DNA of 64,000 bases from Owenia fusiformis (lineage: Eukaryota; Annelida; Polychaeta; Sabellida; Oweniidae), in NCBI GenBank assembly GCA_903813345.2, contig CAIIXF020000002.1, forward strand, positions 28,777,223 to 28,841,222, read 5' to 3'. Of the stretch, positions 27,086 through 61,300 are shown one piece after another (the stretch's first letter is position 1; the number at the start of each line of letters is the position of its first letter). Made by a program: the position numbers and the translations under genes. The notes beneath the pieces were generated by a model. The model saw nothing but the letters and a program-made list of their open reading frames with translations. It did not search any database and was not told the origin of the DNA.

Positions 27086-27099
27086 GACTGAGAGGATCC

Positions 27100-28390: not shown

Positions 28391-28396
28391 GGGTTG

Positions 28397-28465
28397 ACAG
28401 GGCAGCATACAGGACCCTACATTCACAAGTCAGACCCTCTACCTCTGAGCCATAACGGCTACCAA
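28397..28465 (-). repeat. tRNA-derived SINE head (degenerate)
   Basis: On the minus strand the segment reads TATGGCTCAGAGGTAGAGGG, a good RNA polymerase III A box, followed by TCTGACTTGTGAATGTAGGG. It matches the better kept copy at 59152-59230, while the B box here is decayed. It is a SINE relic, not a working tRNA gene. Confidence 0.45.
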
Positions 28466-33542: not shown

Positions 33543-34321
33543 CTAGTTATATAATAATTAGAGAATATGATAACAAATGATTTTGATATCAAAGACTTTT
33601 CTGATACTCATACATCTTTCTGTTTCATGAGAAAGATGCTCTAATTACGAGACATCATTCTCCTTGATTTAATAACAAAAATAGTTTTGCAAGCTGGTGA
33701 CCTGTTGGACCTTTTTAAATAGATTTCACATCCTAGAAGCATATCAATTCAGAAAAAATTATGGAAAATCTTAAAGATTATACCTGTGTCTCTATTCATC
33801 GAGCAATTTATTTGTTAATTTTTCTTATGAAAAACTAAATTTGTAGATTTGTTGATCTGATGAAATCTGATACATATCTAATATAGGCATATATTATAGG
33901 TAGTCTAGTGTAAAATTATACATATATATATATTATTTATTCTTTTTATGTATTACACTTTTTTGTACCTGACCCTCACGGGTGTGAATGTACTCAATAA
34001 CGATTCTATAATTTTTTTTTTTGAGTCACAATTATCTCAAACAGACACCATTGGGTACCACAGTGCATCATAAGGATTTTAGCCATGTTGGTCAACGCTG
34101 GACTTCTGACCAGTTGGAATGTAATTTTCCTGTACACCCTGAAAAATGAAGCTAAAGAGAAACTGTTTAGGACCTCTGGATCAGTGCTAATTACACACCC
34201 TGTATATGTATTCCTTATATATTTATTTCTGAATTTATATTCCAGTGTATTTATATATTATTTTTTATTGACTTCTGTTAATTTTTCCAGATATCTGACT
34301 CAAAACAGATAAGAGACTAAG

Positions 34322-37300
34322 ATGGCTGAAGTTGCAGTTATCTCAGTGGAGGGAATGATGTGCCACAATTGTGTTGATAAGATAGAGGCACATCTTATGG
34401 CCATTGAGGGTGTAAAGGCTGCCAAGGTTAGTGGTTTATTTGAACAGGCCCGTAGCCAGGATTTGCCAAGGGGGGGTTCATTTTTCAAAAATTTCCAGGG
34501 GGGTTCACATTTGACAATTTTGGCCCAAATATGGCTAAAATCACTTGAGAAGTGCTCAAAATGGTGAAAAACTGCATGATTTTGAAAGAATTTTTGGCCA
34601 GGGGGGGTTCGCCCGAACCCTGCGAACCCCCCCTGGCTACGGGCCTGTTGAAGCAATACAATACTAAATGAAACAATACTAAATGTAAATAGACATATAG
34701 ATAGAGGCGCATCGTATGGGCATTGAGGGTGTAGTCTAGTGATTACTAAATGTATGAATGATCTCTCAGTATTAATGTAAATCAGCGATCTGTGCCCACT
34801 TGAGATCAGAAAGAAAGGCTTTCACCCACCTGAAAATTCATTTGCATCTTTATGTTCTTTGAATTGAGAAAAATCATAAAATGTGGCATATTTTCTCCAA
34901 ATTTGGCTTGAATTGTAAAAATAAGCATTATACAGTCACTCAAGTGAAAGATCCTCGGAAATATACTGTGTATGCATATATCTTTGTAGATTTTTTCCCA
35001 ACTGGTTCAACAATGTTTCATTTTCACTGATTTTAACTGAGAAATGCCTAAAACTGATCAAAATCTCTAATTTGTTATAACCCAGGAGGATTCAAAGCAT
35101 TTCAAATTTTCAATTTGTTGCAGTACTTGGAAGCTCAATTAATTAGTACTAATTAATTAATTATTAATTAATAGCATCTATCCTTTCATTATGTTTAGAC
35201 ATACATTAGCTGAGAAGCACTGAATCCAGTATGTAATTAAATTCTTAAAGCGCTTAATTATGTCAAAGTCGGTAATTTATTGACGAGTATAATCAGATCT
35301 CATTCAAACAGATACATAATAGTATCGATTGGATTTTTGTTTTCATTGATACAATGTAAATATAAAATTGGCATATTTTATGATATGCATTTACACTTTT
35401 ACAAAGGTATTTTGTAATATATTTTTCCATTCATAAATTTAGTTGATCAATATTTAATAATTCATGTTTAAACATTTGTTTATTTTTGCATTGAGCATCA
35501 CTTCAAATGCATGAACTCTTCAATATCATTTTTTTGTGGGACCCCCCTCAAAGCTTGTTCACTTCGCTTCCTCATGGCATATACTCACATAATACCCATG
35601 CTATGCCACTGATATACATAAATGTAGTCCAGTGCATTTGTGTATCAAAAAAATAAAATATTTTACAGTCTTAAGACTAAAGGATTTTCTCAAAAGTTTT
35701 ACTCATAACCTAATTGAGATTTTGACACCATTCTGCTCTTGCATCTTAAAGACTTAAGAATTTCAAGTTCAATGGATGGACTGGCCTGTTCGACCAACTC
35801 ATCAGTACAAGATGACAACAATATAAGCACTTTTCATTACATGCAATAAAAATCTTAAAAATTTATATCTTCTAGGGGAGGACATTTTAAATTATCCATG
35901 TCTCATCATCATGGTAAACCATGACATCTCATTTCTTCTCAGCCCTGAAACAGAAAGATGCTAACAGAATGATGTCTCATATTTAGTTAACTCGTTTTGC
36001 ATTCATTCTCCAGTCATCCAGAACTATCTATTTAGCCTTTTATTAACATCAATACATGTGTATTTAAATAAACACATGATTTATATTTTTAATATGAAAT
36101 AACAGGAGGATAATTGCATCTTGATCTACCAAGTTCATTGCAACCTGTATTCACCCTTTAATGTTATGAAATTGGGATCATATTTCAAAACGAATTGTTA
36201 TGTGTAATTGAATGAGTGAGTAAAGCAAGGTATAAAACGAGAAATATTATACATGTAATACAATCTATATAATGTTAGAATGCTACAAAATTCTATGCAT
36301 GGTTTTTAGATAAGAAATAAAGAAATATTACAAGCCCCAGAGGAGTTCCGAGAGATATCCACACCCCTGTGTCTTTATCCCAAAATGCAAATGGCAGATA
36401 AGAGGGGCTCTGGCATATCAGAATGGAGGAGTTCTTTATGCTGGGAGATTTATAATCCTGTTTGAGGTGCAAACTGAAACGTGAGGTAACTCACATTATC
36501 CTGATGTTAATTGATATCCAATTTAGAATGATGGACTCCTTTCCTTCCATGATAAATACACACATTACCATGGTTATCCTTGATAGAAATATCTAGACTT
36601 CCTGGCTTCAACGTCCTTTAAAGGGAGAAGCTTGCAATGCATTTCTCAATTCTAATGTCAAAGACAAATTTGGAATAATTTGGCAGAATTTATTTTTGAT
36701 TTGACTGGATGCCTTTGAGCATGACTAGTTAAGTATGGATTTAATGGAAGTTTATGAGGAGATCTCTGCTGGAATGTCTCCTAAGGAGATTCCTTGATAT
36801 GGAGAATAAGAATGACTGTAGATATACAAAATAATGTATTTTCATAACAATGATACACCTTGAATTTGCCAGATGATTTAAGAATGATTTTTTCATTTAG
36901 ATGTACACTATGTACAGTAAAACCTGTCTAATCCAAATGCCTCTCGGACCAGGCAAAAGTGTTCGGATTAGTATGTTCACATAAACATGTATGGCTAAGT
37001 CAATGGCAAATTTGAGATTTGAGATCAAGTGTTCACATTGAGATGTGTTGGGATGAGACAGGTGTTCATATACAGGTTTCACTGTATTTAGTTAAACACT
37101 TTATATTAGTAAATGATAATTAATAGACAATATAAAGGAAAACCATGTCTTTTATTAGTCTCAATATGGTTTGGATTAAACAAGTTTTTCTGTATATGTA
37201 TATTGTACACTTTTCTTCATGATCATTGAATATTACATATATGCAAAGCAATGTTTACCCTGAAAGCTTGCATCTCTATGTTACTCCTGAAATGAGGTTA

Positions 37301-40300
37301 TTAGTACATGTTTTATCACCACCTATTGAAAACTAAGTACAATTTCATTATTTGCCCTGGACCAGGGTGGATAATGACTACTATAGCCTGGCACTATGGA
37401 TCCACCTATTTCTCAAATCAATATAGTAGGTGGTAAGGTAGTAAGTTGTAAGGTAGTGATAATACGTGGTCTTATTTCGAGAAAATTAGCCTTATTAGAA
37501 AAAAACATTCAATTAAGTAAACATATTATGAGTGTTTTATATAATCACGGAGTAATAACTGATATCATGAACAAATTACATGAGAATGACTCGTGACATT
37601 GCAGCTGGCTCAGTAACATTCAAACCTCAGAAAATAGTTCCATGTGGTGTTTAAAATTGATAATTAAGAGTGGAAAAGAATGAAATGAGCAAATATAAAT
37701 ATTGTGATTTGTACGCAATACTCAGAATTGTGGGAAAATGCTAGAAAATTAGACACTTTATTCAAATTCGGAGAGAAAATAAGAAAAAGGTATGAGCAGA
37801 CGGACATTATCCTTGTAGGCAGTTATTTAGATAGAACCTTTTACACATCAATAAATGACCACATACAGTAGAACTTGTACATCCGAACACCTACCTAATT
37901 TGAACATCCTTCAATGTGAACACATTTTCTCAGTCCCAATTTTTAATCTCCCATTGACTTTAATATCCAGAAACCTTAAAATGTGAACACCTGCTAATCT
38001 GAACACTTTTGGTCACTTCTGGTAGCATTCAGATTAAACAGGTTTTACTGTATATGGTCACAACATATTTAGTTCATAACGGATGATGATAAGTAATTTA
38101 GAAATTGAAGGAATAATAGATATTAATACACACAAATATTTATGTATAGGATGCTTATCTCAAAACAGCAAAAACAATGCTTCGGATCCTGGAATCAGTC
38201 CTCAATCTTAGTAAATTAATACAAAGGGCAACTTAAGGCTTGGCTCGGACGTGCATTTCTGCATGTATGGATTTGATACTAAAGAAATATTAACTGGATA
38301 ATAGCTGATCGATTATGACTTCAAATATATAAACAAACTTATATATTGTGTTAATTGATTCGGAGAATTATATCAAGAAAGTTTATTCCATATTGCGATG
38401 TAAGGCGATGTTAATGTTTTGTGATTAGTAAAAATTCATGTTCTATTCGAACTTAATTTCATGAAACATAGGAGGAAACAAGTTTTTGTACAAAAAACAC
38501 TGAATTGATGAAAATCATATAAACAATATGAAAGAAAGGAAAATCTGCCATCTTAAGGAAAGAAACCATACAGCATTTTGGTTGGTGAAATTAAATGTAA
38601 AATAACCTGGATTAATTGACTTAATAACCAATAACCACAAGATCAATACAGATAACCCAGGACAAACCATTATATGAACAATCATACTTAATTGAACTTA
38701 ATGGGAATATGAATGTACTATAGATCGTGTCAGAGTCAATAATGTAAATATACAAGTACAAAAGAATTGTAAATAATTTATCGGCACATTCACACATGAT
38801 CAACAAGTAGGTCAATATCGTAAAAAAATGATATTAGGAACGAAGGAGTGATATTGTTATTACAAGAAAAAAGTTGTATTAAAAGTATAGGAAAAATATC
38901 AGCTCAAGCTCAAAATGAATAAAAGTAATGTATCATGAAATAAAGGAGATATTACATCATATTATTCAATGCATGAAGTACAGTAAAACCTGTATAACTG
39001 AACACTGCTATAATCGGAACACCTCTCAATATGAACACCTTTTCCAGTCATTGTGGTTGGCATCTGTAACAAATGGCAGGTGCTGACATTATGCATTAAA
39101 TGCCTTGTTTAATAGCTGGCATAAACTTCCGTGTTAAAAAATCTTAAAATGTGAACACCCTATCGAGCATTAGCAGAACACTTTTGGTCGGTTTCTGTGG
39201 TGTTCAGATCAGACGGGTTTTACTGTACATGTATGTAATATAATGGTGTAATGTTGTGACTACATGAACTGGAAATGTGAGAATGGTACAGTTGTACTCT
39301 TATTGATCATCAAAGACTTGAGTTAGGACTAAGAGGAACATTACGCTTTAGATACAGTTGTACTTCTTATTAATCATCAAAGACTTGAGTTAGGACTAAG
39401 AGGAACATTGCACTTTAGATACAGTTGTACTTCTTATTAATCATCAAAGACTTGAGTTAGGACTAAGAGGAACATTACGCTTTAGATACAGTGGTATTTC
39501 TTATTAATCATCAAAGACTTGAGTTAGGACTAAGATGAACATTACGCTTTAGATACAGTGGTACTTCTTATTAATCATCAAAGACTTGAGTTAGGACTAA
39601 GAGGAACATTACGCTTTAGAGTGCTACTTCTTATTAATCATCAAAGACTTGAGTTAGGACTAAGATGAACATTACGCTTTAGATACAGTGGTACTTCTTA
39701 TTAATCATCAAAGACTTGAGTTAGGACTAAGATGAACATTACGCTTTAGAATTGAGATCAATTGACATATCAAGGAGATGTTTGTATTATTTGCTATCTG
39801 CTGTCAGTGTTAATAATGCCAGTTCAGTTGAAAAAATATCAATTTCTATGGAAACAATAAAATTATTTCATCCTGCTTTGTGAGATAAGAGAATATTTGC
39901 TGTTTGAACACCGGATATTAGAGAAGATCAAGTTAATATGAAAATGAAAAAGTACCAAGTATAGTTTTAGAAGGAGATGGAAAATTACAGGAAACCCCTG
40001 GCAGTGTTAGTTGAAAAATATGACTATTGAATAAAAAATGAGAAATAATTGTGTCTGAGGAGAAATGGTGAAAGTACATGTTAAGAGTAAATATGAGGAT
40101 GTTGACTATCAAACAGTGCCTTTGGTAAGTAAGTTGCATTCATATCAGAAATATATGCCAAATATGCCTATTAGTGCTTTTAATGCCAGTATTCTCCCAA
40201 AGGTTTTCAAAATTCTCATGGATGGTGAAAAGTGAAAAGCAAAATTAACTTTATTATGGATAAACCCCTCCTCCCCATAAAAAGGAAGAAAAATATCTTG

Positions 40301-43300
40301 CATTTCACTTGAATTTTAAAGAAATTAATATATTCTTCATTAATTAAATCATCATTTACCACCTTCCTTCTGATAAAACTGATCTTCATTTCTTAAATAT
40401 TTACATTCTTTTTAATGGAATCATCATTACCCCCCCCCCCCCCCTCTTATGAAACTAATTGACTGTTCACATCTATTGACATTTGACCACCATCCCTTTA
40501 CTCTTTCTTAGATTGTCACAATGAAGTCCAAAACATTTTCTGTGATAAAATGTTCACCACATGTATTTTACATGTACTTTCAGGTATCACTACAAAACCA
40601 TGATGCAGTTGTACAGTATGATTCCACAAAGACTAACACAGCCTCTCTCGTTGCAGGCATTAATACACTTACTAGCCTGGATGGCCAAGGTAAGGCCAAG
40701 CAAAAATAGTTCTGTTCTTTCTTTATTTTATTTGGGGAATTTACTTGGACATAACTTATACATGTTAAATAAAACATATACATTTGATGGCTTCACTGAA
40801 TCAAGTATAATAGAATTATAAGTCATGTAAGATTACCTGTAAGATTACCTCTGGATATCTGCAGGAAGAAGTGTTCATACTCTTACAAGAGTTAATCTTA
40901 TTGAAGTCAAGTTATTTCAACAGGTATATGGAAGTTGAAGGTAAATAAAATAAAATAAATTTCAGGGGCAAAGCCCCAGCAGGATCTAAAAATAGCCTGC
41001 CTGGACCCCCCCCCCCCCCCCCCCCCGGCTACGGGTCTGGAGGTAAACAATGCAAGTCGACAATGTTTTGAATTTGAAGCAGCCAATTGCAGAACTTTTG
41101 TAATATGTAATATAAATAATGCACAATTGAACTTATTCTTCTTATTCTAGCATTTCTGGCCTCAGAGATAAGTCAACATTACTCGGATACCATAATTGGT
41201 ATAGATGGCATGACATGTATGTCCTGTGTGCGTAACATTGAAGGAAATATCAGCACAAAGCCTGGAATAAAGCTGATTAAGGTGAATGATTTACTTTTAA
41301 TAAGGCAGATATTTTGACACATGTTTATAGTCTCCACCTTTTTTGTGGCATGGAGGTCAGGGGTTGGTGTTTGGTGGTTGATGTTTGTTGTCTAACAAAT
41401 GACAGGGGTTGACATTTTGCATGTTATACCTTGTTTTCATTGTAATACTGCAGTATCTGTTGTCTTTATCTGTTTGTAAATGTAACCTATGACCTGCAGC
41501 AATAAACATGCCAATCTAAGTTGAATGCACACCAGCATACTATTAGAAACAAGTATAAAACAAGAAGATGTTTTTTTATTTAAAAAATCTACAGCTACGA
41601 TAATTCTTGAAGCCTTATAATGAACGCATACATGATATCAAATTTTTATTTTAATGTATAATTTTGTTATAAACCAACAATAGGTATCATTGGATGAAAA
41701 GCTTGCTAGGGTCAAATATGACTCGCAGCTGATGGAGCCAGAGACAATACGTGAGATGATAGATGACATGGGATTTGAGGCTGTGATTGGTCCACTGATT
41801 AAGCCTGTAGTGCCACCTATTATTGATGTCCCGAATGTACCACAGACAACAAGGGTCTTAGTTGAAGGTAGGAAAGGGATTTTATTTTTGGATTAGAAGT
41901 GTGTGAAGATATATGAAGACATCTACTGGGAACTTGACTGGCATTTCTTGCATTTATCTTGTCATCTACTGCTACATCATAATTGCCCTTCATACGTTTT
42001 TGCATTTTTGTACTGTTTGCATAATATTACTGTGAATAGCAATGGCGAAAAATGCAGACTACATAATCTGATTTGGACAAGGTAAGGGGCATTATGGCAC
42101 TCAGGACAGATATGTATTATATTAACCTTGGAATAATCTCAATATCCTGAAACTTTTATAGGATAATCTAGATATATTTTGTCCGTCACTTTTACAGGTA
42201 TGACTTGCCAATCCTGCGTGAAAAATATTGAGATGAACATATCTGAACGTCCTGGAATTAACGCAATTAAGGTCTACTTGGAAGCCAAAGAAGCCATTGT
42301 GACCTTTGACCCGACGTTAACCGACCCAGAAAAGATCCGAGAGCAGATTGATGACATGGGTTTTGAGGCTAAATTACCAACTGTGTCGCATAAAGCTGTT
42401 TTGGACGAGTTTGATGTGCTAGCACAAAGGAATGTAGGTGGCGTCACTGAGGAGACATGTACTGTTAGCATAGAGGGAATGACGTGCCAGTCATGCGTAA
42501 AAACTATTGAAATGAATATCGGAGAGAAACCAGGTATGTTTTGTGTTTTGAAAAAATTCTGTCACATGAGCTCGTTACAAGTCAACTTGTATAATATCGT
42601 TTGATGATAAATTAACAACATTCAGTTTTTCTTTCGCTATGTCACTTGATTTTCAGCTGGTAATCATGACAATTTTTATTTCAATTCAAGCTCAATTTTG
42701 TGTTCATTTCCGTTGCTCAATCTTGTCATGAATATATATGTAATTTATTGTTTCCAAAATCGTATGATCGTTACAGAGAGACCAAAGAGGAGAGTCACAT
42801 GTATGTTTGTGAGAACCTCTTTAACTGGGTAACTGCTGGAATCCCTCATTTAGTTTACTTATTTAAGCACACAGTAGACTATGTAAGACAGTCATCAGGG
42901 TATATTCACTTACATACATTCCTTTCTTTGGTCTTAATTCCTTGATCATTAAGTTGAAGTTTGAAGAATATTTAAGATAATTGAAATTAAAGAGTTATCA
43001 TTCTGACTTACCATTTATGTTATCTTTTTGATATATTTTCAAAGGTATACTTAGTATTAAGGTGTCTCTGGAAGAAGAAAGGGGTGTGGTCCGCTACAAG
43101 ACATCTGATTGGTCAGCAAACAAGGTCGCAGAGGCGATAGATGATATGGGATTTGATGCTCGTGTTATCGATGGGAGAGAATCAAATATACCATGTAATT
43201 TAAATTTATTTATTCCAAAATGTATTTTATTTTTTGGGATCCAAATAGTTCAAATTATTATTATTTATTTAGCCATATGTTGGATGAAACTTTCCATCTT

Positions 43301-46300
43301 TCAGTCATTTTAACAATGAAAACAAAAGATTTTAGTCATAAGCTTAGTTATATTAAACCATTTCTCTAATACGCTTCAGCAACGAAGACTGTGACCATTT
43401 CCATAAAAGGGATGACGTGTCATTCCTGCGTGAAGACAATTGAATCCAACATGGCCGACAAGCCTGGTGTTACCTCGATAAGGGTGAATCTTGCGAGTGA
43501 AATAGGTGTCATAGTGTATAATGACAAGAAAACAACTCTTAGCGAACTGAGGGAGATGGTTGATGACATGGGATTTGATGCCAAATTACCTCCAGGTAAC
43601 ATTTTCGAATCTCAAGAATCCGTATCTGTATTTCTCTTCATTTACCCCAACATGATCTCAATACATAATGATATGTAAATTCACTCGTCAATGACCCTAT
43701 GGAATTGGGCAAGTATTCCTCAGTTTCTTTATTTGTCCATCAACATTGCTGTTGGAAATTGAAATTGCTATTTGAGTTAGGTTATATAATGCTAGTTTAT
43801 TTTAAGTCGATATATGGCCTAATTTTTACCCAACAATTTTGATTAAAGCTCGAAAAGAAACATTTGTTTTAATTCTCCTTCAATAAATACACACATTGCT
43901 TTTAAGCACTTAATTAACCAATAAACCTATGGATATGCATCTTTATAAGATGCTTCAAATGGATATGGAAACATGTTGATTGCATTTTTTTAAATTTTAT
44001 ATTTCAGGAGAAGAGAATATGAATTCAGCTGCCATCATTCCATCCATTGAAATAAGTGGCTTGAATGGGTCATCACATCCAGATAGTCTCAAAGCAAGTG
44101 GTTCATCCAAGCTAGATAGTCTCAAACCCTCTGGGAGCAAAGTATCACTGCAAAAACTGGACAAATCTAGTCCAAATGGTAAGTTGATCTTCGACAATGT
44201 GATGTATTTCAAGTTCCACCAAATTGAATGTTAGTTTCATCAAGTATTTCCAGACTCCACCAGAGTAAGGTTTTAATTTCAAAGAGTATTTTCAGGTTTA
44301 AACAGAATACAATTTTAATTTCATGGAGTATTTTCAGGTTCAAACAGAATATAGTTTTAATTTCATGGAGTATTTTCAGGTTTAAACAGAATACAATTTT
44401 TTATTTTCAGGTTCAGTGAGAGTAAAGTTCACAAAGAAAGCAGGGATTGATTCAGAGGAAGATGACGAACTTGAGAAATGCCATTTGAAGGTCACTGGAA
44501 TGACATGTGCATCTTGTGTGCAGACCATTGAGAAAAGTCTCGTGAAAATTGAAGGTATGGGTATGATCTGTATTTCATAACTCACAATTATATCCCATAA
44601 TTTACAATCTTTTCATTATATCCCATAATTTACAATTTTATCCCATAATCCACAATGATGTCCTGTAATTTATTTACAATTATATCCTATAATTTTACAA
44701 TTGTTTTCCATAAATAGCAATTATATCCCATTAATTACAATTTTTACCATTATTTACAATTTATCCCATAATTTCAGGTGTACACAATGTCCTAGTTGCA
44801 CTGATGGCCCAGAAAGCTGAAGTTCGCTATGACCCTGCTTATATTCTACCATCACGTATTGCTAACAAAGTAATTGAACTTGGGTTCAATGCAACAGTTC
44901 TGGACACTGAAACAGTTGGACAAGGCACAGTGGAGCTACATGTATGTATACATTGTTTTTTTGTTTTTGTTTTTTATTTTTTATTTATTTCATGTTAATA
45001 TAACAATGGAATGTACAAAGCATGTGCACTCGACACCCTTAGTAATTTGAAAATAAAAGAGAAGTCTTTTGAATCTGGATTTTATGTCTACCCCCCCCCC
45101 CCAGGGGTGACATATTGGCGTTTGTAAAAATGGTAACAAATGGCAGGTGGTGGCATTTTGCATGTTAATGCCTTGTTAAAAGTTCTTATCTTTGTAAGGC
45201 ATGCAGTTTTGTGACTCAATTCAAATGTTGTTCTGTCTATATATAAAACTCATTAAGTCATAAGTTTAAAAGTGTTTAGATTAAAATTAAGTTCCCAATA
45301 GTCCAAGATTTGAAAATGTAACATTCATTTATTTTTTGAGAAACAGGTCCCAAGGTCAATTACAGAGCGTGTGACGAAATGAAGGAACTGTACATAAAAC
45401 AAAGGTGCTACTCTTAAAAGCGTATGGCTAAATGAAAGTAAAAGGATAAAGATATCCAATAGATGACATGATTTATTGTAATACGTATAAAACTGTTATG
45501 ATCTGTTGCATTCTTTGTCTGTCATTTTAGAAACATTTTCTAATCTTTTGTCTGAAATTGTCCGTTCTCAATTGTGAATCATATGCAAATAAACCATTGA
45601 ATAGTTTGATTTTTGATGGTTTGATGGGAACTTTTGAAGATGCTATAAGTTTTGAGAGAACCATGTCATTTAAATCATCAGTCTGATCAGCTGCTTGGTT
45701 TTGTATGTCATCTGTCTGTGGTCCTTTAGCCTTCTGTGGTCCCTCTGCAGTTTGCGACCCCTTTCCTCCTTTATTTGAAGAATTTTCTTTGTTTTTGAGA
45801 GTTGCAACAAATGGCCTTAAAATCCAGTTCTTAGCATGGGAGTTCTTTGTATAGCCTTGAATCCTGGTATTATATAATGGAAATAGTTTGCTGTGTTGCG
45901 CCGTGTTTCCATGTTGTTCTGTGTTTCTGTGTTGCACTGCATTCCCTTCATTGTCAATCAGTTCAAAGAGATGGTCCTCATCCTGAAAGATGCCATCTAT
46001 AGGCCATTGTCTGATATTTGCCTTGACGCCAACATAAAGAATTTTCTTATACTCATTTATGGCATTGAGTAAAATCACCAACCGATTCTTATAATTTCCA
46101 CCAGCCTCATTCAATTCAACATTACACCATTTCGCTATTAATCCTCGCTCTTTCTGGGTCAAACCAAAGTCATAAATGACAATATTTTGACTGGGAAGAT
46201 TATAATGTATAGATCCAACAAGGTTGCGGAGATACTTAAAATCAGCGCTGTTTGAGGTTGTAACGAACGTGAATTCTTCTGGGATTGAATCAAAATTCAG

Positions 46301-49300
46301 TATGTGTTTATTGTTTTGAATTTGCTCCATTTCAGTGTCTCGATCGTATTTCCCTAATGTTTTATTCAAATTATTTTTTCGATCACCAGGATCTTCTCTC
46401 TCTTTAATCCAATCCAATTGTCTCTCCAATTTCCTGTGATGTTTCACATTGCGTTTTCTCATGTGTGAATCCAAGATATTGTTCGTTCCTTGGATAGATT
46501 TTGTGTACAATTGATAGAAAGTGAAAACTGTATGCCCCAGCACATAGCACGTAAAAAATGTGAGGGGAAAACGAAGGCACAAAGATAGTCTATACCAGCG
46601 CATCTTCTGAAGTTGATCAAAATCGTCAAAACACTAATCAGATCTTGCTTGCATTCAAGTAAACTGTACTGATATTACTGGTACAGAAATGTGTTTCGTG
46701 GCAAATGAATTTGTAAAAAGTAGCAAGTTTTTTATGAGTTTGTTATGTACTTAGCTTTAAAATATCATCATTAGCAGTGCTTTAATGATATAGTATTGAC
46801 TTGAGGATTAGGGATCGAACAGGGATGTATTAAACCAAACACACTTTTGATATGTTGAACATATTTAGAAATTGAAAATATTTTAAATGACACATCAAAA
46901 ACAAATTAAGCTGTTTTTATTTTGGAGACGAATTGACCATTGGCGCAAAATGACCTGCAAGTACATGTACATAGCAAATGGTGTTCAGAGGGTTTATCGT
47001 TTAATGTTGTTTACGTGTTATTTGTATGCAATGTATAATACAGTATTCACAATAAATCCACTGATACTCATATGGTAGTATTTTGATACTTTATTGACAA
47101 AAGAATGAAAGTGTTTATCTGTTAATCATTTGTAAACATAATTACTTAAATGACTGTTTACTTTTTTTCCTGAGGCATCTTTTTTATATAGGGATGTTAA
47201 ATTGGGTCTTAAAATACATTTATGATCGATCATTCAAGAGAGTGAAAAATATCAAAGAAACAGACAGTCTGTTGTGGTCTCTCCTGCTTTGAAGTGAATG
47301 GATGCTGCACCCATAGATTTTGAAAATAGTTTTTTAACCCTCCCATTTGCACCCACTTGAAATGGGATGCACCCAGTTAAGAATTTGAAAATAGTTTTTC
47401 AACCTCCAATTGGCATTCACTTGTAAGGCAGACATGGAGTCCCTTTGTTTAGATCTTGACCTGCTGATTTTTCATTCAGAACTGAAAATTAACAAAATTG
47501 AAATGAGTCATGAAAAAATATCATTACCGGCTCACGATTCAATTTTAATCAGTAGTTTCAGTATTCTGTAATAGGAAGAGAATCTGAACACCCTGTAATA
47601 CCATGAGAATCTGAACATCCTGCAATAGCAAGAAAATGTGAATGCCATTTAATAACAAGAGAATCTGAACACCTTGAAAAAGTGACTGAATCTGAACGCT
47701 CTGTAATAGCAAGATAATCTGAATACCATGTAAGAGCAACATAATTTGAACACCCTATAACAGCAACTGAAAATATATGATAAAATAGTTTTCCTCAATT
47801 TTATATTGGTCTGTATAATTTATATTTATAGGCTTAATCTGTTATAGCCTAAACTTACTTTATGTAAGGCAGTTGTTATATTATACAGAACGTATCTTTT
47901 AACCTCTTGGTTACTTAGAGTGACGAGATTATCTGTCACAAAACTTTTCACTAAAATTGCTCTAATTTGAACACTTTTCATCCAATTTACACAAAAATGT
48001 GTGGAGACGATCTTTGCCAACTAATTTCACTAAATTGAGCATCACCTGTTGTATATATATGTGATAAAATGTCAAAAGCTGGCAAAAAATGAACAATTCT
48101 CTGGTTTCACACCGATTTTAGAGTCTAGGATTCAAGAGGTTAAAATGATCCATGATCTTAATCTTTTATCTACTCTAATGTACGTTCTACATTGTATTTT
48201 CAGATTGAGGGGATGACATGTGCCTCATGTGTCTACCTTATCGAACAAGGTGTGATGAAGAAGCCAGGTATTTGCTTTTACATGTAATTTATTTCAATAA
48301 TTGATTTGATTAAAATATACTTATATGTGAATAATGCTAAAGATATACATGTGTACACACATTACTGAGCTCTAACCATCAGTATACTGGTAAACTATGA
48401 AATTTGGACGATGGAAAAAATAGTTCGATATGATATGAATTAATATATGAAATGATATCCCATTGCTTTTCCACATTTGGGGTTAATATTTAAGAAATAA
48501 AGGATTCTGGGCCTACCAATATGGGTATTCACTAAATGGTTCAAATTTCGGAAAGGAAAGATAATGAGAAATTGTGAAATGCTGGACTGTAATTATGAAC
48601 GTTATGTCTTAATATAACATATCTTGAAATTTATAATTTCCAGGTATAGTGTCTGCAGTGGTTGCCTTGGCAACAAGCAAGGGAAGATTTGAGTTTGAGA
48701 CTGACCAGACTGGGCCCAGGGATATAATAGATGCAATAAAGGTGGGTTTCTTTTGTCTTTAACCCACTATTGGACTAAATCATGGTTTGCCCATGTGGTA
48801 AAAAGTATTTTTCTGGTTCAGTACCGGCTTGCATCTTGGTCGAAGCTAATATCTGGAACACATTAATGTACAAGGGGGTACTGCTTGAGGGAGTCCTGTG
48901 TTGTTAAACGCCCTGGGTTATGTATCTGGGATATATATAGAATTATCCCATAGTTGAGGTCAAATCTCTAGAATAACACGTATATATATTTATGATATTT
49001 TGCAAATGCGTGGAATAAAGCGATATCTGTGGAATAGGGAGAATATTCCACAGATATCACTTTTTTCCACGGATTTGGAAACTCCCGCCAATGTGATGTG
49101 CATTGTTACATGGTTACACGTTATATGCTTACATGGTGATTTCACGACGTCACAAATATGGAAATGATTTATGTTTTTGCTATGGTTCAAATGACAAAAT
49201 AAAACTCAATGTTGTTGTGAAATGCTTTGTAAGGTGAACTGTGGGATGATTTGATGTCAACTATGGGATAAATAGAACATCCTATGATTTTTTCATGATA

Positions 49301-52300
49301 TTATTTTAATTCACTCGTTGATATCAATATCTGCACTCATTCGCTACGCTCACTCGTCCAGATATTGATATCAACTCGTGGATAAAAATGATATCTCTCA
49401 AAATCATAGGATATCCTATACATACATATCCAGTAAAACCTGTTTATCAGAACACCTGTGTAATATGAACACATCTCAATATGAACACTTTCAATTCTGT
49501 ACTCACCAATTTACTCACTTTCATTGTTAAAAAAACCTTGAAATATGATCACCATATTCCTAAGCAGGTGTCCAGAATCCTTATCTCCTTCCTATATTAT
49601 ATTCTGGATTTTGGAGCCCTGCTCTCCGAGGATGATGTGTGAGCACCTGGTTTTAGTCAGTCCCAGTTGCATTCAGATTAGACAAGTTTTACTGTAGATA
49701 TATACCGTACATATATTCTCAATTTCTTTCAATTTATTCCTTAATAATATATAATAAAATACAGTACATATAAAAGGTTTAACAGGTGACATCATTTCTG
49801 ATGTTTATACCCGTACATGTTGATATTACGAATATTAAGAGCAAGGTAAGGTCAAGGAATTATCAAACATATCAAGATTAAGTTTTGTCTAAGAGAAGAT
49901 CGAAGAGGAAGTGTTGGTGGGGGAGGTGCATCACAGATGTAATTCAATATGCCTTGTAAATAAGTTAGGAAATATATCATGGATGTTGTTTTCATTATTT
50001 TGCCACTTAAAGAAAAATTCAGCCACATTGACTTTCTGGACAGAGCTATTTAATAAAATGTTGACCATTTGTTTTTCCAGAGTCTTGGTTATGAAGCATC
50101 TCTGATCACGGATGACCAGAAAGGAGTTGACCAAATGGAACACAAGACTATGATAGCAAGGTTAGTGTTCTACAGGGTGTCCACTGTGCAGTGAATCGAA
50201 GTATGGAAAAACTTATTCAGTGGATATAAAGAAAATAGTAAAATATAGCTACAATTGGTTGTACCGTAGTTCTAATTCTAACCAGAAAATCCACCACTCT
50301 TTAAAAAGGACCCTGATTGCGTTTAGATTGGTCATTTGAACACCCAATCTTTTAGATCGACCCTGTTTGTGTTCATATTGGCCATTTGAGCCGCAGGGAC
50401 TCAACTTTCTATCTTAATTGGTAGAAATGACGCAAGAATTTGGCCATGAAATATCAATCTCCAATCAATTCAGTAAATTCATTTCTATTTATAGATGGCG
50501 CAGGTCATTCTTCATCTCGCTAATATTTGGATTGCCATGCATCATTATTATGATGTACTTCATGTTCTCCATGCTGGCTAATAAGTCACCACATGTTGCT
50601 CCTAGCAATACAACAGGTATGTGCCAATCAGTACAACAGGTATGTGCCAATCAGTACAACAGGTATATGCCAATCAGTACAACAGGTATGTGCCAATCAG
50701 TACAACAGGTATGTGCCAATCAGTACAACAGGTATGTGCCAATCAGTACAACAGGTATGTGCCAATCAGTACAACAGGTATGTGCCAATCAGTACAACAG
50801 GTATGTGCCAATTAGTACAACAGGTATGTGCCAATCAGTACAACAGGTATGTGCCAATCAGTACAACAGGTATGTGCCAATCAGTACAACAGGTATGTGT
50901 CAATTAGTACAACAGGTATGTGCCAATCAGTACAACAGGTATGTGCCAATCAGTACAACAGGTATGTGCCAATCAGTACAACAGGTATGTGCCAATCAGT
51001 ACAACAGGTATGTGCCAATCAGTACAACAGGTATGTGCCAATCAGTACAACAGGTATGTGCCAATCAGTATAACAGGTATGTGCCAATCAGTACAACAGG
51101 TATGTGCCAATCAGTACAACAGGTATGTGCCAATCAGTATAACAGGTATGTGCCAATCAGTACAACAGGTATGTGCCAATCAGTACAACAGGTATGTGCC
51201 AATCATGAGTGTTGCTAGACACCAGAATGTTACAGAAATGTATATTTTTATTACTTTTATTAGTATATTCCAAATATAATTCATGTTATTGTAGATTCTA
51301 AATAGAACTCATGTTGTAAATTCAAAATAGAATTCATGTTATTGTTGATTCCAAATAGAATTCATGTTACTGTAGATTCCAAATAGAATTCATGTTATTG
51401 TAGATTCTAAATAGAACTCATGTTGTAAATTCAAAATAGAATTCTTGTTATTGTAGATTCAAATATAAGTACACCTGCACCCACCAGCAAACCCCGCTAT
51501 AACAGTGGACACTACATGGTCTGCCCAGGACTTTCACTAGAGACTTTACTACTTTGGATCCTTTCTACCCCTGTACAGGTATGTACATTAAGTCCTCTTC
51601 TTAACACAAGGCAGTAATCCGCCCTGCATTGAAGCATCTTATTTCACATGGTTTCAATCTCTAGGATATGATTCTATTGCTTAAGTAAACAAAACAAAAT
51701 GCTTATGATACTCTTCGAGCAAAGGTAATAGTGCTTTTTGGGCACTTTTGATTGGTTCTACAGAATCACTTTTGGTAGAAGGTGGCCATTTTTGCTATAT
51801 ACTTTGTAAAAATGCCAGCCATGGCTGTTCGATGGGATTTGCTACGCTTTGGCGTTGCTGTTGTCTAGTTTACATAGCTCAGATACCTTTTAATCTTAAT
51901 ATCATTGTTTAAGATAGTAGGGAGATTGGTTCCTGATTGTTTAAATGTAGCTCAGTCCTCGTATATACTACATAATATTTTTTTTAATTTTGTTACATAA
52001 TATAGGCTACATGCTATGAGCTTGAAAGTTTGATTGCAATGAGGTTACCCTAGGTTTCAGCCTTGAAAGAATTCGCGCTGTATCAACCATAACTGAATAA
52101 TACTCATCATAATAATAATAGTCATCGTCATAAAAATAATCTCTCAAGTCCTCCATATTCTCCGTAGATAAGATCGCTGTCCTCTGACTTGATGTAAGCT
52201 TTCTGTCTGCATGCTGGAGGATAAGTTGCCTCGTGCATTCTTGCTCACATTCTCTAAACAACAGCTTCAGATATTCACGATTGAACTTAGGAGGATGTAC

Positions 52301-55300
52301 ACATTGCGGTATTAGAAGTTCTGTTATGATATACACAGCAAGTAGGAATGTTCCTGTTTCGATGTTCAAATCATCACCAGATTTATAGATAAACATATCA
52401 GGGCAGTCCTTATCAAAGAGATCCTCAAGCCATTTGGCACTTATGTGAACCTCTGTTGTATTCTCTACTGATTTTAGCCCCAGCTTACATACAGGGTGTC
52501 CCGAAAGTATGGGGCCCCCCCTAGGCAGAAATATTCCAGTCTCCTCATAGTATGTGTCATATATCATTTTATATTTTATATCTTTTCGGGTCGGATGGAT
52601 ATTGAGTTGGAAAAAGAGAATGGTGAGGGTAGAAACTCTAAGGAAACTCTTCTAAAGTCCCTTAACAGGTTTTAAGAGGGTTATAAAATTCCACACCCAT
52701 ATTTTAAGGGCTTTTAAGGTCATATCTGAAAATAATTGCTGCTGTTAACATGGCCAAGGGGGGACACATTGACTAGTAATGTGGCGTAAAATTGAACTTT
52801 ATTTTGACAAAACACTAACTTTTAAAATGACTGTAACTTTTTCCCATTTGAGAGTTAAACCATGATACTTGGCAAATCAATGTAACTTTGGATAAGCTTT
52901 AAAATGATATATGACACATACTATGAAGACGCTGGAATATGTCTGCTTAGGGGGGGCCCCATACTTTCGGGACACCCTGTAGATTGTGTGTGATGTCATA
53001 ATAACATCTCCAAGGAGATGGATCGTCAACACTGCTCTCACATTTCTCCATGTGGGATCTTACTAACGTGTAAAGTGCATGTGAATGAAAGTCTGTCTTA
53101 TCAAGTGTTTTCTCATACTGTGATAGAAAATATTTTAGTGCTCTCAGTACAATCCTGTGATGATCATCTATTCTGGATGCTCGAAAATGTGGTTTCTCAT
53201 AGAATGATTTCACCCATCCATACTTAATACTAGGTAACCCTATATAGAATTTGTCCTCTGTATGCGGCAACTTGGTTATATTGAGTATTTTCATACAGAA
53301 TGCCAGGTCTATGTCTGTTACACACAATGTATTTGACATGCTTCCATTAAGGAGTACATTATCAACTGCTAAAACTGGATGTAGTTTGTTGAATTTATCA
53401 ATAATTGGTTGTATAATGTAAGTCCTGATGTATTCCACATGGCTGTCTATGTCTTCTTGGCCGTGCTTCAGTTTGGCCAAGTTGTGTATTTCAGTTACAT
53501 ATTGAGATAGTTGTTGTTCTTCAGTTTCAGTGAGAGTGTTCTTGATTAAAGGAATCAGCACAGGAGGAGGCCATCTTTGATAAACTTTGAGTATTTCTGA
53601 TTCCAAACTATCACTTCTTTTACTACTAGCTTCCATGGTTGTTGTTCTTCAGTTGCAGTGATTTGGGTGATTCTGTTTCTTATATCTAGGCATCTTACCT
53701 TAGTTATTCCCACTATGACTGGAAGTCTCAAGATACAGAAATGTCTCAAATCATTAAAATCGTAAAAGAGGTATTAAATTCCATTGTCAAAGCCTATTCT
53801 CCTTTGTTTAGTAATTCAGATACTTCCCTCAGGGTACTAGTTCCATGTTTGCATCCAGTTCATGTTTAAAGAGAGGGTATGCCATGATCCAACACTCTTA
53901 TTCAATGTAATTTTGTCTATTGCTTTATAAAATATGCCGGGTTTATATTTGTACATGTACTCCCTTGAATAGATTGATACTCAGCTGTTTAGAGTTAACA
54001 TCCTTTAGTTTATGGAAACATTTTAGTACATATCCTATAATTTGATAGAAATTTTTCATCCGTGTTCTTTATCTGCTGCTTTTTATGTTTTGTTTTTTTT
54101 TACCAGCAAAAGGAAATCAAACATGGCTGATTTCTTCCAACCATTTATTGGGAGTGGCAGCTATTCAAAATTGCCAATGCTTGTATTGATCATATTGTTT
54201 TCTACTAGTAAAATGGGTAATACCCTTTCTGTTGAAAAGTGATTCATCATAGTATTGATCCAACTCATGAAAGTCAATGAACAAACACATTTAAGCGTGT
54301 ACTATTAGATGTATAAAGTAAAATATTGGAAATATGTATTAAACATTCTCAGTTGCTATGAAGCATTAAGTATATTCTTTGCTATCACCAGAGACATATA
54401 ATAAAATACAGTACAATACAGTAAATGACTAATATGTTACAATACAGTAAATTAGTAATATGTTACAATACAGTAAATTAGTAATACGTTACAATATAGT
54501 TAATGACTTATAGGTTACAATACAGTAAATGACTAATATGTTACAATACAGTAAATTACTAATATGTTACAATATAGTAAATTACTAATATGTTACAATA
54601 CAGTAAATTACTAATATGTTACAATACAGTTAATTACTAGAAATAGTTGTGTAATAATGTGAGTAGATACACATACGTGTTATATAAATATAATGCTGCC
54701 TAAATGTTGATTGATGGTTGAATTTTTATATTTATTAAATATTTATGGATGATATCTTGGCACAACCTGTAATACATGTTTACCAACCTCCTTGATCCTC
54801 TAACATTATAACATAAAAGGGCATACAAATAGAAAAGTATTCCTACTTTTTTTACATATAGACTTTCCATGATTAACATTTATAAAGGAAACTTAGTAGG
54901 AAGTAGAGAGACTTTGCAATGAACTTAAAGCGTGTCTATAATTAATGCTTGATGAAAAGAACATTAGCATTTCTATACATATAAGTACATGTATGGATTT
55001 TTGCAAAATGCCAAATTTCAATTCACATAGTAATATGCATAAACATAAGTTGTGCTTTCACGTATGAGCGAAATCTCTCTACTTATAAGTAATTTTGACT
55101 GATAAGTGATAAAAAGACTTTGATTTGTGGTTTAAACATCAATGACATTGATCAAAGGCATCTATTTGTTTAAATTCTCCCAAATAATAAATATGGTTAC
55201 CATATTTATAGAAAAAGAGAAAAAAATCTTAATAGTTTTCTCCAAATACAGTATACACTTTGGGGATTTTTAGAAAATAGATATGAGATATGACAAGGAA

Positions 55301-58300
55301 TGATATGAGCCCATAATATTCTAAAATTGAAGCATTTTTTGCTAGATTTGATTCTGTCTTTGAAACACATTTATCAACATTTCATTTTTCGATTTCCAGT
55401 TTGTTGGAGGCAGATATTTCTACATCCAGGCATGGAAAGCACTGAAGCATCGCAACACAAATATGGATGTCCTTATCGTCTTGGCAACCAATATTGCATA
55501 CTTCTACTCTGTTACTGTTGTGATTGTTGCCATGGTGATGAAGGAAGCGGGCAGCCCGAAGACATTTTTTGATACACCACCGATGTTACTAGTGTTTATA
55601 ACACTTGGACGTTGGTTGGAGCATGTTGCTAAGGTAATATATCTTTTTATATTCATTAACAAATAAAAAACACTCATGAAGTTTCATTTGGTCAAGAGTA
55701 TATTTTACAGGTTGAACTCTGTAATGTTGAAATAGCTTCCTCCATTTCGAAGGAACTTTTTTTATGATTTTTCTTGAAGAAAAATTCTTCAATACATGGA
55801 AAATTTATCGAGAATTTGTAATATAAAACGATGCAATAGAGGCTTGACTTGTATGTGGTTTCTTTACTAGGGTAAAACTTCTGAGGCTCTATCCAAGCTG
55901 CTGTCCCTGCAGGCAGTTGAGGCTAACCTTGTTGAACTAGATAAAGATGGCAATATAGTGAATGAGACTCAGATCAGTATAGACCTAGTCCAAAGAGGGG
56001 ACATCCTCAAAGTTGTCCCTGGGGAGAAGATACCTGTGGATGCCAAGGTGAGGTTTTGTTTGGGTAATTTTAATGAGGAAGCTTCAGTTTTTAAGGTTTC
56101 AATTTTAAAAGCTGAATGAATATAACAGGCATGTGGAATTAAGATACGGTATCAGCAATCATTAAGTCAGTTGATGCAATCTTGTAGTTTTGATTAATTA
56201 TGGAACAAGGTGCAATTTAAACAGAAGCAAACTAATTTAGGATTGCATTGTGTATCTGGTCTATGCTACTAGGGACTGTACATTTGTATGGTCCACTGTT
56301 GTGATATTGTTTGTTAATGTCATTTCTGTATTTTTAAAGAAAGGTTCAGAGTACAAAAAAACTCAGTGTAGAAAACTCAATTTGAGAAGTAAATGAAAAG
56401 AATGTATATTTTACTTTGGTTGTTCTCAATCTAGGTGATCCATGGTGCATCCACGTGTGACGAGTCACTCATAACTGGTGAGGCTATGCCAGTGCAGAAA
56501 GAGGTCGGCAATGATGTCATAGGGGGCTCCATCAATCAGAATGGAGCCTTACTTCTTGAGGCAACACATGTTGGCGCAGATGGAGCACTTGCACAGATTG
56601 TGAAACTCGTTGAAGAGGCTCAGACATCAAAGGTAAGAATGTGTTATTACTCAAACATGACGCTATTGTTTAAAGCGGAAGACCTCAAATGCATTTAAGA
56701 TTAACCAAACTACTGTTTGGCTCGAACTTTGTTTCATTCATTCTATTAAATTTTCAAGAGGTGGTTCAATGATTGACTTGTTTCATTTTATCAGAGAAGA
56801 CGAATTGAATCAACATATTAGCACAAACACGCCATCTATCAACCCATTACACCCAGGGCGGGCTATCAATCCTTATTACCCAGAAATGAATGTACTTTAT
56901 ATAGACAACAAACACCCATCTGTGGAGAGAAAAGTTAGAAAGTCTTAGCAAAACAATCTCCTTTGTTTACATTATGATCCTTAGTAATGTAAACAAACCA
57001 AGTGATAAGGATTGATAATCCACCCTGGGTGATTACCTTTGTAGAAACTGTCATTTTTGCATATTAAAGAATTGTATGAAAAAGTAATCTGTTCTCATTA
57101 TTTTAGGACCCTATACAAACGTTACCTTTTTGCATATTAAAGAATTGTATGAAAAAGTAATCTGTTCTCATTATTTTAGGACCCTATACAAACGTTACCT
57201 TTTTGCATATTAAAGAATTGTATGAAAAAGTAATCTGTTCTCATTATTTTAGGACCCTATACAAACGTTACCTTTTTGCATATTAAAGAATTGTATGAAA
57301 AAGTAATCTTTCCTCATTATTTTAGGACCCTATACAAACGTTACCTTTTTGCATATTAAAGAATTGTATGAAAAAGTAATCTTTCCTCATTATTTTAGGC
57401 CCCTATACAAGCGTTAGCTGATAAAATTGCGGGGTATTTTGTACCAATGGTCTGCATTGTCTCATCACTTACACTTATCGTCTGGATTGTGATTGGCTAT
57501 ACCAATATCTACAACATCGATCCAGAATTTGACGTAAGTTATAAATTATTTAACACCCACTGATTAGCTGGTAATATTGTCATTTGTTTAGAAATGTGAA
57601 TACAATTGAGGTCTAAATAGTTCTTTGATTAACTCTTTCTATTGGAGTGATCAGGGACATTGCCCGGATTTTCTTGAGGCAGTGGTCAGTAATCTAAATG
57701 AGATTCTTACAATGTTTAATAATAATTAATAACGTCATGTATGATGTCCTATAATTTCCAATTAGTTCTTCAAGTGACGCAAAATGCATAGCTGGTTATT
57801 CTGAGTTGTATCAATCCAAGAGACAATGGATCCTATAAATTACACTATTAATTGCATTTTGACGCAATCTAATAATATAACTCCTTTGTATAAAGCTATT
57901 TGATACATGAGGTAAAGTTGGAACTACTAAAATTTTGAAGCAGTAAAGATATTTGGTGATTTCGAGATATAGTTCCATCAGGCAAAACAGTGAAGACGGA
58001 AAACAGAAAAGTTTGTACAAAATAAATAGCTGAATAGCTGAGTATTTTAACATTTATTAACAGAGGACACATATTAAGTTAAAAACCAAGCTGCTTTAAG
58101 TTTGTGACATCAACGTGCACTGAGACCATAAAATCATGAAGATGTCACCTAATCTGACAGATAATGAAAATGGTACTCAAAATTCTATTTGGATATCAGC
58201 ATCAGGGCATACCATGAGAGATTCGTATATTTTCTGGGTAGTATACATTTTACTCATTCTTACGATATTGTTCGGACATGGCTTAGTTATTGCCGCTATT

Positions 58301-61300
58301 TGTAAATTTGAAAGATTGCGAACGAAAACTAATATCTTATTGGTCAACTTATCAGTGGTGGATTTTCTTTGTGGCATATTCTATTCCGTGTTTCGCAGCG
58401 CATTTTTCCTTTTGGAAAACAGTTATTTACCCGATTTGATTATTGAATACCTTTGTTTAGCTGGATGGACATTTAGCACGTTTATATGTGCCCTATCTCT
58501 CTATATTTTAACTGTTGCCACCATAGAACGATACATAAAGATTTCATATCCTTACCATTATGAAAGCTTGGTTACTAAAAAGATTATTATCTTAAGTATA
58601 GCAATAGGATGGACACATTCCTTGACTCTTTCATTACCTATATTCTGGTTTAATACATACATTGATGTAAACACTTGCCATAAACCAGTTTATGTTAATA
58701 TTCATAGCATTGTCATTCTGGTACTCGCAACCATGTGTTTGGTAATTATCAACGTCCTGTATGTGAGACTTTTTATATTGGCTTTACAACATAGCCGGAA
58801 AATCAAAGCCACAGATGTGCAACCAGCCGATGCTGATAAAAAACCGATCATGAATCGTTCGACAAAGACAGTCGCTAGCGTGATCTGTAGTCTATACATT
58901 TGTTGGACTCCGTTCATTCTGACTACAGTTCTCCACAAAACTGTCGGCTCAGTTACTACTCCTTCATGGCTGCATATCATGGACACAATCAGTCACATCA
59001 TATTGCTGCTGAGCTTTGCATTAAACCCATTTATATACGCTTGGAGAGATAGGGAATTTAATGAAGCATTCAGAAAGATGCTTTGTAGGAAGAGAATGCA
59101 GTGAGCAGTGATCATTCCCTTTATACTGTAATGACACTCGATAGCAAGTCGATACTACCCTTATGGCCGAATCAGTAGAGCGTCAGACTTGTGAGCAGAG
59201 GGTCCTTGGTTCGATTCCCGTACAGGGCATTGAATTTAGCACACACCTTTCATGTGTAGTATCTGGTTTGTTGCACTACAGCTCCCCAGAAGACTGTGCC
59301 CTCAGGTCGTTACAATACTAGTACTATATTATCAGGGGGTAACTGGTCAACTCGTACCCAAGACAAGTCGTAACCAAGACAACTCGTACCCAAAACAAAG
59401 TGTACCCAAGTATATATTTTGTTTGGAATCAAGTGTTGGACTGGGAATGGGTATAGACTATAGATATACATATATAATAATGTTCAGAGTGTGCAGTGTA
59501 TATGAAGTATATGAGAGAATTTCTCATTATTCATGGAGGAGAGCTAGAACAAGGAGTGAAATAGAACTTGGTGAATATTGGAAACATTATTGTGTTATAT
59601 TGAATCAGTTTCGTATTATTTGATTCATGAATTTTGGGATTACCATTTTTAGGATACTAACAAGTTGTCAGTGGACTTAAAAACTTTTTTTGCACTTTTT
59701 TTACTTATTTATTTCAATTGAATACATATACAATATACAATAATGCATTAACTCTTAAATCGCCAAAATGGCATTATATAAGACTAAAGGGGCAGGTGGA
59801 AGTAGAGGTGGCAGAGCAAGCAGGGTTTTGGACTAGGGCAACGTTAATGTATTATATGTCTCTATCATATTGTATTTGTGCTGTATTGATTGCACCAATT
59901 GTGTACTACTGTATCCAAAGAAGTTTCCAATTTAATAAATCAAAAATAAAAATCTTTTTATTTTAATTAATTTGAGCCATGTGCCAATATGCGTAATCAA
60001 ATGTGTGATTCTGAAAGTATAACATTGTTATCATACTTTGAAAAAGTCCTGTATTGTCGGTGTCTTGTGCTGTTTGATGCTTATAGTACCCTCTTTCAAT
60101 GGTTTCTGGCATAGAGCAGGAGAAACTTTTTATATGGTTAAAATGAGAAAAACGAGATCCTTTTTTTAAATGAGGAAAACAATTTTGAAAAACTGAGGAG
60201 ATGGGCTACTAATCCATTATCTGTCGGTATAATCCAAATCATATTATTGTTACACGTTATATCATTTTTTGTGCTTGAGTTGAAGATAACATATTATTTT
60301 AATATACTGTAGATTGGGTTAATTTGGCGCCCGCTTTAATTTGGCGAATTTGGCGAAATTGAAAAATTCGCCAATATAAATCTTCGCCAAAATTAAGAAT
60401 GGATCCCCGGGAATTATCTAGTGTATTTTGTCCAGTGTATTTATGGCACTTCAGGTTTAGATTTTTCCAAAAATATGAAAAATGTCTCTCATAAATTGGC
60501 TCAGAACTGGTCAGTCACTCATTAATACTCAGGGAAAAACTAGAAAGGAAAAGCGCGGTATGGTAGCAGCATCGATCGAGGTGCAAAATGTAAAGGGTGA
60601 TCTCACAAAAATGTACAAACGTATCACCAGTGGTCCTCAAAAGAAAAAATTAACATAGCCAAACGTGCCCATTTACATGGTATTTCGCAAACAGCGCGTA
60701 AGTTTAACATTTTTTTGCATATCTGCCAAATTAAATAGCCGCCAATATGCCAAAAATGGCAAAATCGCCAAATTAACCCAATCTACAGTAAGTAAAACAA
60801 AGAATATGTGATCAAGCAATACTCCCAGTCAGATAATACTGCCAAAATTGTTTTCAATATAGTACATGGTCCTTTTACATACATGTAATTAAGAGCAGAC
60901 TAAGTTTTAGGTTTTAGGCATGCTGGGTATATATTTTGGTGGCTATTTGAGTTTTTGAATAAAAATATGTGATATTGATAACTGTGCTCTCTTGTGTTTT
61001 ATGTCACCATCAAGAAGTTGTGACATATTTCATGTCACAGATTTCAACTTCAAAAACCAACAGTAGGGTGGTCCAAAATATGGCGAAAAACCAACTTTCT
61101 TTCGGATCATCTTCCTCATTTGACTTACTGTTGTCCATGACCTAAAACACCTGCACACCACATTTTGAGACCCAAATCCCATGGGAAATTTACCCACGCT
61201 TCGACTGAAAAATTCGGTTATTTCATGATTTTTTGCTATTTTCGATAAATTGCCATCTCCTTTTTCCTGGTATAAAATGTTTCTATTTTTCATAATAAAC

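Follow-up and report, generated by a model that had tools for sequence, protein, structure and literature searches.

The window analysed here, a 64,000-nucleotide stretch of the genome of the annelid Owenia fusiformis, contains coding exons 1–20 of the 29 that make up ATP7, the gene for a copper-transporting P-type ATPase, which continues past the end of the window. A gene model with 19 exons, consistent in splice phase and encoding 1008 residues, was built before any reference was consulted, with characteristic ATP7 motifs as a guide; it turned out to be a 100 % match to, and an exact substring of, the annotated Owenia protein P0001 (1534 residues), and the gene is identified by this exact containment. 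A domain search found HMA and E1-E2_ATPase domains in the product, the best solved relatives of which are copper-transporting ATPases; the Owenia ATP7 cluster consists of one sequence, and a second Owenia ATP7 is absent among the 120 matches listed. At each of 33 introns, namely the 19 of ATP7 that lie wholly inside the window, 11 of UTP18 and 3 of ALG11, a single GT-AG pair recreates the annotated protein, and nine further ATP7 introns were solved in the sequence downstream of the window (L004). Because the first exon of P0001 lies at 34322, the exon that bears the array discussed below counts as number 14 among the coding exons, as the first-pass annotation had numbered it. The pipeline behind the Owenia gene models is described as using RNA-seq, Portcullis junctions, Augustus and PASA (PMC9977687), and since RNA-seq junctions were merged with predictions in this annotation, read support for the intron 14 junction is likely.

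The features to which the text refers are the following (a slash marks an exon–intron border; L004 positions are in the downstream sequence).

34322..63938, + strand: ATP7 copper-transporting P-type ATPase gene, coding exons 1–20 of 29, from the protein match; continues past the window
50495..50616, + strand: ATP7 exon 14, ending CAACAG/GTATGT, from the gene model and annotated protein
50609..51205, + strand: donor-spanning array, 26 copies of 23 bp, from Tandem Repeats Finder and a consensus search
50617..51456, + strand: intron 14 as annotated, 840 bp, from the annotated protein
51257..51465, + strand: acceptor-spanning array with a 28/53-bp period, from the repeat finder and border alignment
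51457..51578, + strand: ATP7 exon 15, from the gene model and annotated protein
57054..57416, + strand: acceptor-spanning array of intron 18, five copies of 73 bp, from the repeat finder and border alignment
57399..57533, + strand: ATP7 exon 19, its first 18 bases inside the intron 18 array, from the annotated protein
44227..44406, + strand: degenerate 42-bp array of intron 8, from the repeat finder; its unit resembles the exon 9 acceptor at 44411
44576..44774, + strand: array abutting exon 10 (44778) and ending 4 bp before it, without spanning by alignment
25043..25551, − strand: ALG11 43-bp array of 12 copies, starting after the first 3 intron bases (donor 25554)
L004:2580, downstream of the window: 29-bp array of 4 copies, spanning the ATP7 intron 24 donor

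ALG11 (24064–28809, − strand) and ATP7 (34322 onward, + strand) have a head-to-head arrangement. In Patella (SNE40_016680/016681) and in Sinanodonta (ACJMK2_031766/031767), the consecutive numbering of the locus tags suggests that the two genes are neighbours there too, and ALG11 and ATP7 are perhaps an old conserved pair. Several introns of the window contain nested reading frames: a 326-residue frame with a rhodopsin-type receptor domain (7tm_1) lies in ATP7 intron 19 (58124–59101, + strand), and a 426-residue frame with a galactose-3-O-sulfotransferase domain lies on the opposite strand of UTP18 intron 2 (7833–9110, − strand). Three other long frames, all on the − strand, are located inside ATP7 intron 15 (52010–52651 and 52950–53648) and intron 10 (45530–46633); none of the three produced a Pfam match at an E value of 0.001.

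The donor-spanning array of intron 14

Exon 14 presumably encodes the first membrane helix of the transporter and the start of the following loop, judging from the usual ATP7 topology. Tandem Repeats Finder reports a period of 23, 26.0 copies, 97 % matches and zero indels for the array at its 3′ border. The first unit consists of 8 exon bases and 15 intron bases, so the array does span the exon 14/intron 14 border as had been noted, with its start at 50609 and not at 50606. The consensus TACAACAGGTATGTGCCAATCAG is identical in 20 of the 26 units, and the search with this unit at up to 3 mismatches gave 26 matches in the window and 0 in 100 shuffles. The claim of a strict register stands in full, as GT is present in all 26 units, from the first at 50617 to the last at 51192, at a constant spacing of 23 bp. 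The first-pass annotation had further assigned a complete ACAG/GTATGT donor to every copy; the units do carry the AACAG/GTATGT border, and the GTATGT hexamer is intact in 25 of the 26, unit 3 reading GTATAT. Units 21 and 24 have TAACAG instead of CAACAG, and substitutions are common to units 9 and 13 and to units 21 and 24. The 26-copy donor array is thus confirmed. When the 498-Mb assembly was searched with the array, one full-length place was found in addition to one 62-bp match at 82 % identity, in a search that possibly skipped common words. The donor at 50617 is strong: among 33 donors, scored with a matrix derived from these same donors, it shares second place with three others.

The ATP7 frame runs open through every unit, another frame is interrupted once (by a stop in unit 13) and the remaining one three times (by stops in units 9, 21 and 24), in agreement with the earlier description of two frames open over most or all of its length. 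Selection for an open frame across the array was considered and rejected, because the probability that four stop-making substitutions all miss one frame is (2/3)^4, or about 0.2.

Arrays at other splice borders

Intron 14 has a second array at its opposite end, absent from the first-pass annotation. The unit of this array (51257–51465) carries the acceptor TTATTGTAG/ATTC, and four decoy positions upstream of the acceptor at 51456 match the border at 18–19 of 25 bases; AG is present in three of them, the fourth reading TTG for TAG. Together, the donor and acceptor arrays make up 94 % of intron 14. At the acceptor of intron 18, the decoys match the true copy at 35–37 of 41 bases, AG is retained in all four, and four differences from the true copy are common to all of them. 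The unit of the intron 8 array resembles both the intronic and the exonic flank of the acceptor at 44411 (23 of 32 bases in one copy), at a best score of 16 of 22 in the stricter border-copy test described below, which is under its threshold. Two further candidates, the ALG11 array at 25043–25551 and the intron 9 array at 44576–44774, were rejected as border-spanning because the alignments show that they only abut the border. The border-spanning sites are accordingly the donors at 50617 and L004:2580 and the acceptors at 51457 and 57399, with the acceptor at 44411 in degenerate form only; these positions are established by direct alignment or repeat finding.

Large arrays also occur away from borders, at 17803–19355 in a UTP18 intron (134–283 bp periods) and at 61155–61723 in ATP7 intron 19 (190 bp period), and a nested array at 15487–16203 fills most of the UTP18 intron 15408–16261, ending 58 bases short. 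Similar translated stretches, such as ARSQ or QNHAVFHH, recur at 9001–9192, 23341–23818 and about 63500 on the + strand and at 34303–34821 on the − strand; they probably represent a dispersed repeat family.

The association between arrays and borders was assessed for arrays with a period of at least 20 and at least 3 copies in the three genes of the window, ATP7, UTP18 and ALG11, against random placements that allow an array to overlap an exon by up to 25 bp. Six of the 13 arrays lie within 5 bp of a splice border, a tolerance picked after gaps of 3–4 bp had been seen; the null mean is 0.55, and none of 20,000 placements reached this number. With the downstream part of ATP7 added, 7 of 15 arrays touch a border (0/20,000); without the donor array the count is 5 of 12 (0/20,000), and without both the donor array and its intron 14 partner it is 4 of 11 (9/20,000). 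At a tolerance of 0 bp, three of the 13 arrays remain at a border (194/20,000), as do 4 of 15 with the downstream part (43/20,000) and 3 of 14 when the donor array is then left out (323/20,000). Wider sets of arrays gave 6 of 17 (0/20,000) and 6 of 25 (16/20,000) at 5 bp; at 0 bp, 3 of 17 arrays lie at a border in the wider set (57/2,000), and the result for the widest set, 3 of 25 (132/2,000), is not significant. When all arrays were shifted jointly without the exon rule, there was no excess (6 against 4.3, reached in 10,968 of 52,012 shifts); we regard this version as uninformative because long arrays then cover whole exons. Counting the arrays that have an end no more than 20 bp from a border gave, under the joint shift, 6 of 13 against 1.3 expected (38/52,012).

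A test independent of the array finder asked for a second copy of each border in its own intron, with at least 17 of 22 bases matching. Such copies were found for 3 of the 66 borders, 31 copies in total: 25 for the donor at 50617, two for the acceptor at 51456 and four for the acceptor at 57398. As a chance control, 6 of the 66 borders have one or two matches in all other introns combined (about 45 kb). In 18 arbitrarily placed 10-kb stretches, array units showed no excess of resemblance to donors, the only borders scored there, with one of 13 arrays at p < 0.05, so the border excess is shown for the genes examined and not for the genome at large. Arrays with a period of at least 20 and at least 3 copies are denser in the three genes of the window, with 13 in about 52 kb against 13 in the 180 kb of these stretches (L007–L024), counted with slightly different merging.

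Splice-site use and the origin of the arrays

The annotated protein joins the first donor, 50617, to the last acceptor, 51456; that the annotated junctions use the outermost sites is a plain observation. Among the 26 donors, 9 keep an open frame with the true acceptor and the remaining 17 lead to an early stop that truncates the protein. The open-frame donors (1, 4, 7 and so on) add 0, 23, 46 or more residues, in line with the earlier statement that three units preserve the frame and add 23 residues, and the loop so lengthened is presumably, by the usual topology, the one that follows the first membrane helix. None of the 104 combinations of the 26 donors with the four decoy positions upstream of the acceptor (AG is missing from one of them) stays open, and all four decoy acceptors of intron 18 lead into a stop, so that the coding cost of most alternatives is equally a matter of observation. 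Because the donors of the array are almost identical, position must decide which of them is used.

We consider the arrays to be minisatellites that arose by tandem duplication across the border, grew into the intron and are removed by splicing between the outermost sites, with a probability of roughly 0.8. A short tandem duplication across the exon 14/intron 14 border would create two donors, of which the one on the exon side would go on serving; duplication of blocks of three or four units, together with homogenisation, would then extend the array into the intron, and the variants that units 9 and 13 and units 21 and 24 share are as block duplication would produce. If the spliceosome joins the first donor, 50617, to the last acceptor, 51456, the intervening copies would leave with the intron and the protein would be unchanged. 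At acceptors the mirror-image logic would apply, with the last site used, and the same process may have operated at the acceptors of introns 14 and 18, at the intron 24 donor and, in degenerate form, at the intron 8 acceptor. On the basis of the annotation, splicing probably takes the outermost sites in nearly all transcripts; rare isoforms could escape an annotation built from short reads. The arrays themselves are presumably neutral and of changeable length. As to why borders should be preferred, mutational bias and some selective use are both candidate causes.

The human gene IFI6 (6-16) reportedly harbours a minisatellite with multiple splice donors, said to have been described by Turri in 1995. 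Two of its downstream repeat units are stated to act as mRNA donors, so that three mRNAs are made from repeat donors (PMC4526556), and by this precedent minor use of the extra donors in Owenia ATP7 is possible. The first-pass annotation suggested that the array could be a working ladder of alternative donors yielding ATP7 isoforms whose loop is longer by multiples of 23 residues. The 26 near-identical donors of a strong type, the frame kept by nine of them and the open ATP7 frame throughout the array all fit this proposal, and an insertion might be tolerated since, in those listed proteins that exceed 1300 residues (114 of 120, many of them near-duplicates and Owenia included), the length of the loop ranges from 7 to 65 residues. 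However, the Owenia loop, at 37 residues, is ordinary, a stop-free frame is expected by chance about once in five cases, 17 of the 26 donors truncate the protein, and the one annotated Owenia protein among the matches listed uses the first donor only, which is where the likeness to IFI6, a minisatellite that offers several donors, ends. We therefore consider a working ladder unlikely. Internal tandem repeats with units of about 30 bp on average are also described in human segmental duplications, some of them at exon–intron boundaries, where they are reported to alter splicing and make new introns (PMC2812944), whereas the annotated structure in Owenia keeps the outermost sites.

A different explanation for the apparent silence of the spare donors would be that RNA folding hides them, the self-complementary GGUAUGUGCC copies pairing with one another while the first donor is taken up by U1 during transcription. 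GGUAUGUGCC is present at each border, all 10 of its positions can pair if G-U is allowed, the predicted fold of two neighbouring copies has an energy of −12.3 kcal/mol, and three 201-base stretches of the locus fall below dinucleotide shuffles (z −2.5 to −3.4). The stability that is notable by this comparison becomes ordinary when arrays built from shuffled units serve as the appropriate control: 13–16 % of 500 such arrays fold equally well or better. In the equilibrium prediction, moreover, the first donor is no more accessible than the others (unpaired fraction 0.19 against 0.22–0.25). We rejected folding on these grounds and consider it very unlikely.

It had also been suggested that the array buffers donor mutations, that is, that the copies are retained by selection as spares rescuing mutations of the first donor. 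The copies are indeed intact (GTATGT in 25 of 26), but intact copies are expected anyway from recent growth and homogenisation, and use of either of the two donors that follow would cause a frameshift and a truncated protein. Moreover, acceptor arrays have grown likewise with truncating decoys, all four of those in intron 18 leading into a stop, so rescue cannot explain the pattern and splice-site buffering is no general explanation; the suggestion is unsupported and appears extremely improbable.

Tandem duplication of an AGGT-containing segment is a model of intron gain (Rogers), and a case with a 24-bp unit is described in fission yeast (PMC4974935). The array resembles such duplications in that a short unit bearing AG/GT is repeated in tandem in ATP7. 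Creation of intron 14 in this way would require one segment at both ends, as in the fission yeast case with its one exonic unit; instead, a 23-bp unit is found at the donor and a 28/53-bp unit at the acceptor, which makes this origin scarcely credible. Finally, although tandem arrays are error-prone in genome assembly, an artefact or a mobile repeat has a very low probability, given PacBio reads with an N50 of 25.75–30.75 kb that far exceed 598 bp (PMC9977687, for what we take to be the same assembly), the confinement of the unit at up to 3 mismatches to this array within the window and its single full-length place in the genome search.

Relationship to amphioxus mirages

The closest counterparts of the border-spanning minisatellites of ATP7 are the ‘mirage’ minisatellites of amphioxus, which are described in Adh3, globin and troponin C genes, with similar repeats in PGBD5 (PMC3087553, PMC3902484). 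In these accounts, mirages are tandem copies of exon/intron borders, donors as well as acceptors, with AG/GT in many copies; the units range from 10–72 bp (Adh3) to 150–160 bp (globins), lengths differ between haplotypes or cells, and regular splicing is suggested to be left undisturbed (PMC3087553, PMC3902484). The Owenia repeat units likewise span exon–intron borders at donors and acceptors alike, their lengths of 23, 28/53, 29, 42 and 73 bp lie within the range of about 10–160 bp given for amphioxus (PMC3087553), and splice signals are present in many copies (GT in 26 of 26 donor units, AG in 4 of 4 decoys in intron 18 and in 3 of 4 in intron 14). In an amphioxus globin gene, copies at the ends of the cluster are reported to be excluded from homogenisation (PMC3087553), and the boundary copy of intron 18 similarly stands outside the homogenised set; in the 23-bp array, the units are too alike for such an exclusion to show. 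The Owenia arrays differ from mirages in their annelid host, in their occurrence at both ends of one intron, in reaching up to 26 copies and in the presence of four clear borders and one degenerate border within one gene. They show the anatomical features of mirages, and are best read as mirages of the amphioxus type.

Among annelids, earthworm metallothionein genes provide an example of intronic minisatellites, located in intron 1 (PMC12783039); the description of these repeats, so far as it goes, gives them without the spanning of splice sites that distinguishes the Owenia arrays. A limited search of the open-access literature, covering titles and the beginnings of abstracts, named no splice-border minisatellites in Owenia or another annelid among the results listed, and within the literature searched, the border arrays reported here are of a known kind in a new phylum.

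Mirages have been described as possibly general in cephalochordates (PMC3087553), and the finding of several in one annelid gene suggests either that they are more widespread or that they arose more than once. If the bias toward borders were genome-wide, it would imply an undiscovered cause, mutational or selective, and introns and exons would continually be provided with raw material for change. With its 26 near-identical donors and its row of decoy acceptors, intron 14 is a natural test of position-based donor choice, and this near-equal stack, together with the repeats at several other ATP7 borders, makes the gene a good natural test of splice-site choice. It is a tentative and rather doubtful extension of these observations that, in some animals only distantly related to amphioxus, a common mutational process gives rise to minisatellites at donors and acceptors alike, so that introns come to be flanked by stacks of decoy sites, the decoys being ignored and the outermost sites taken; if this were true, these introns would allow the choice between identical splice sites by position alone to be studied in nature.
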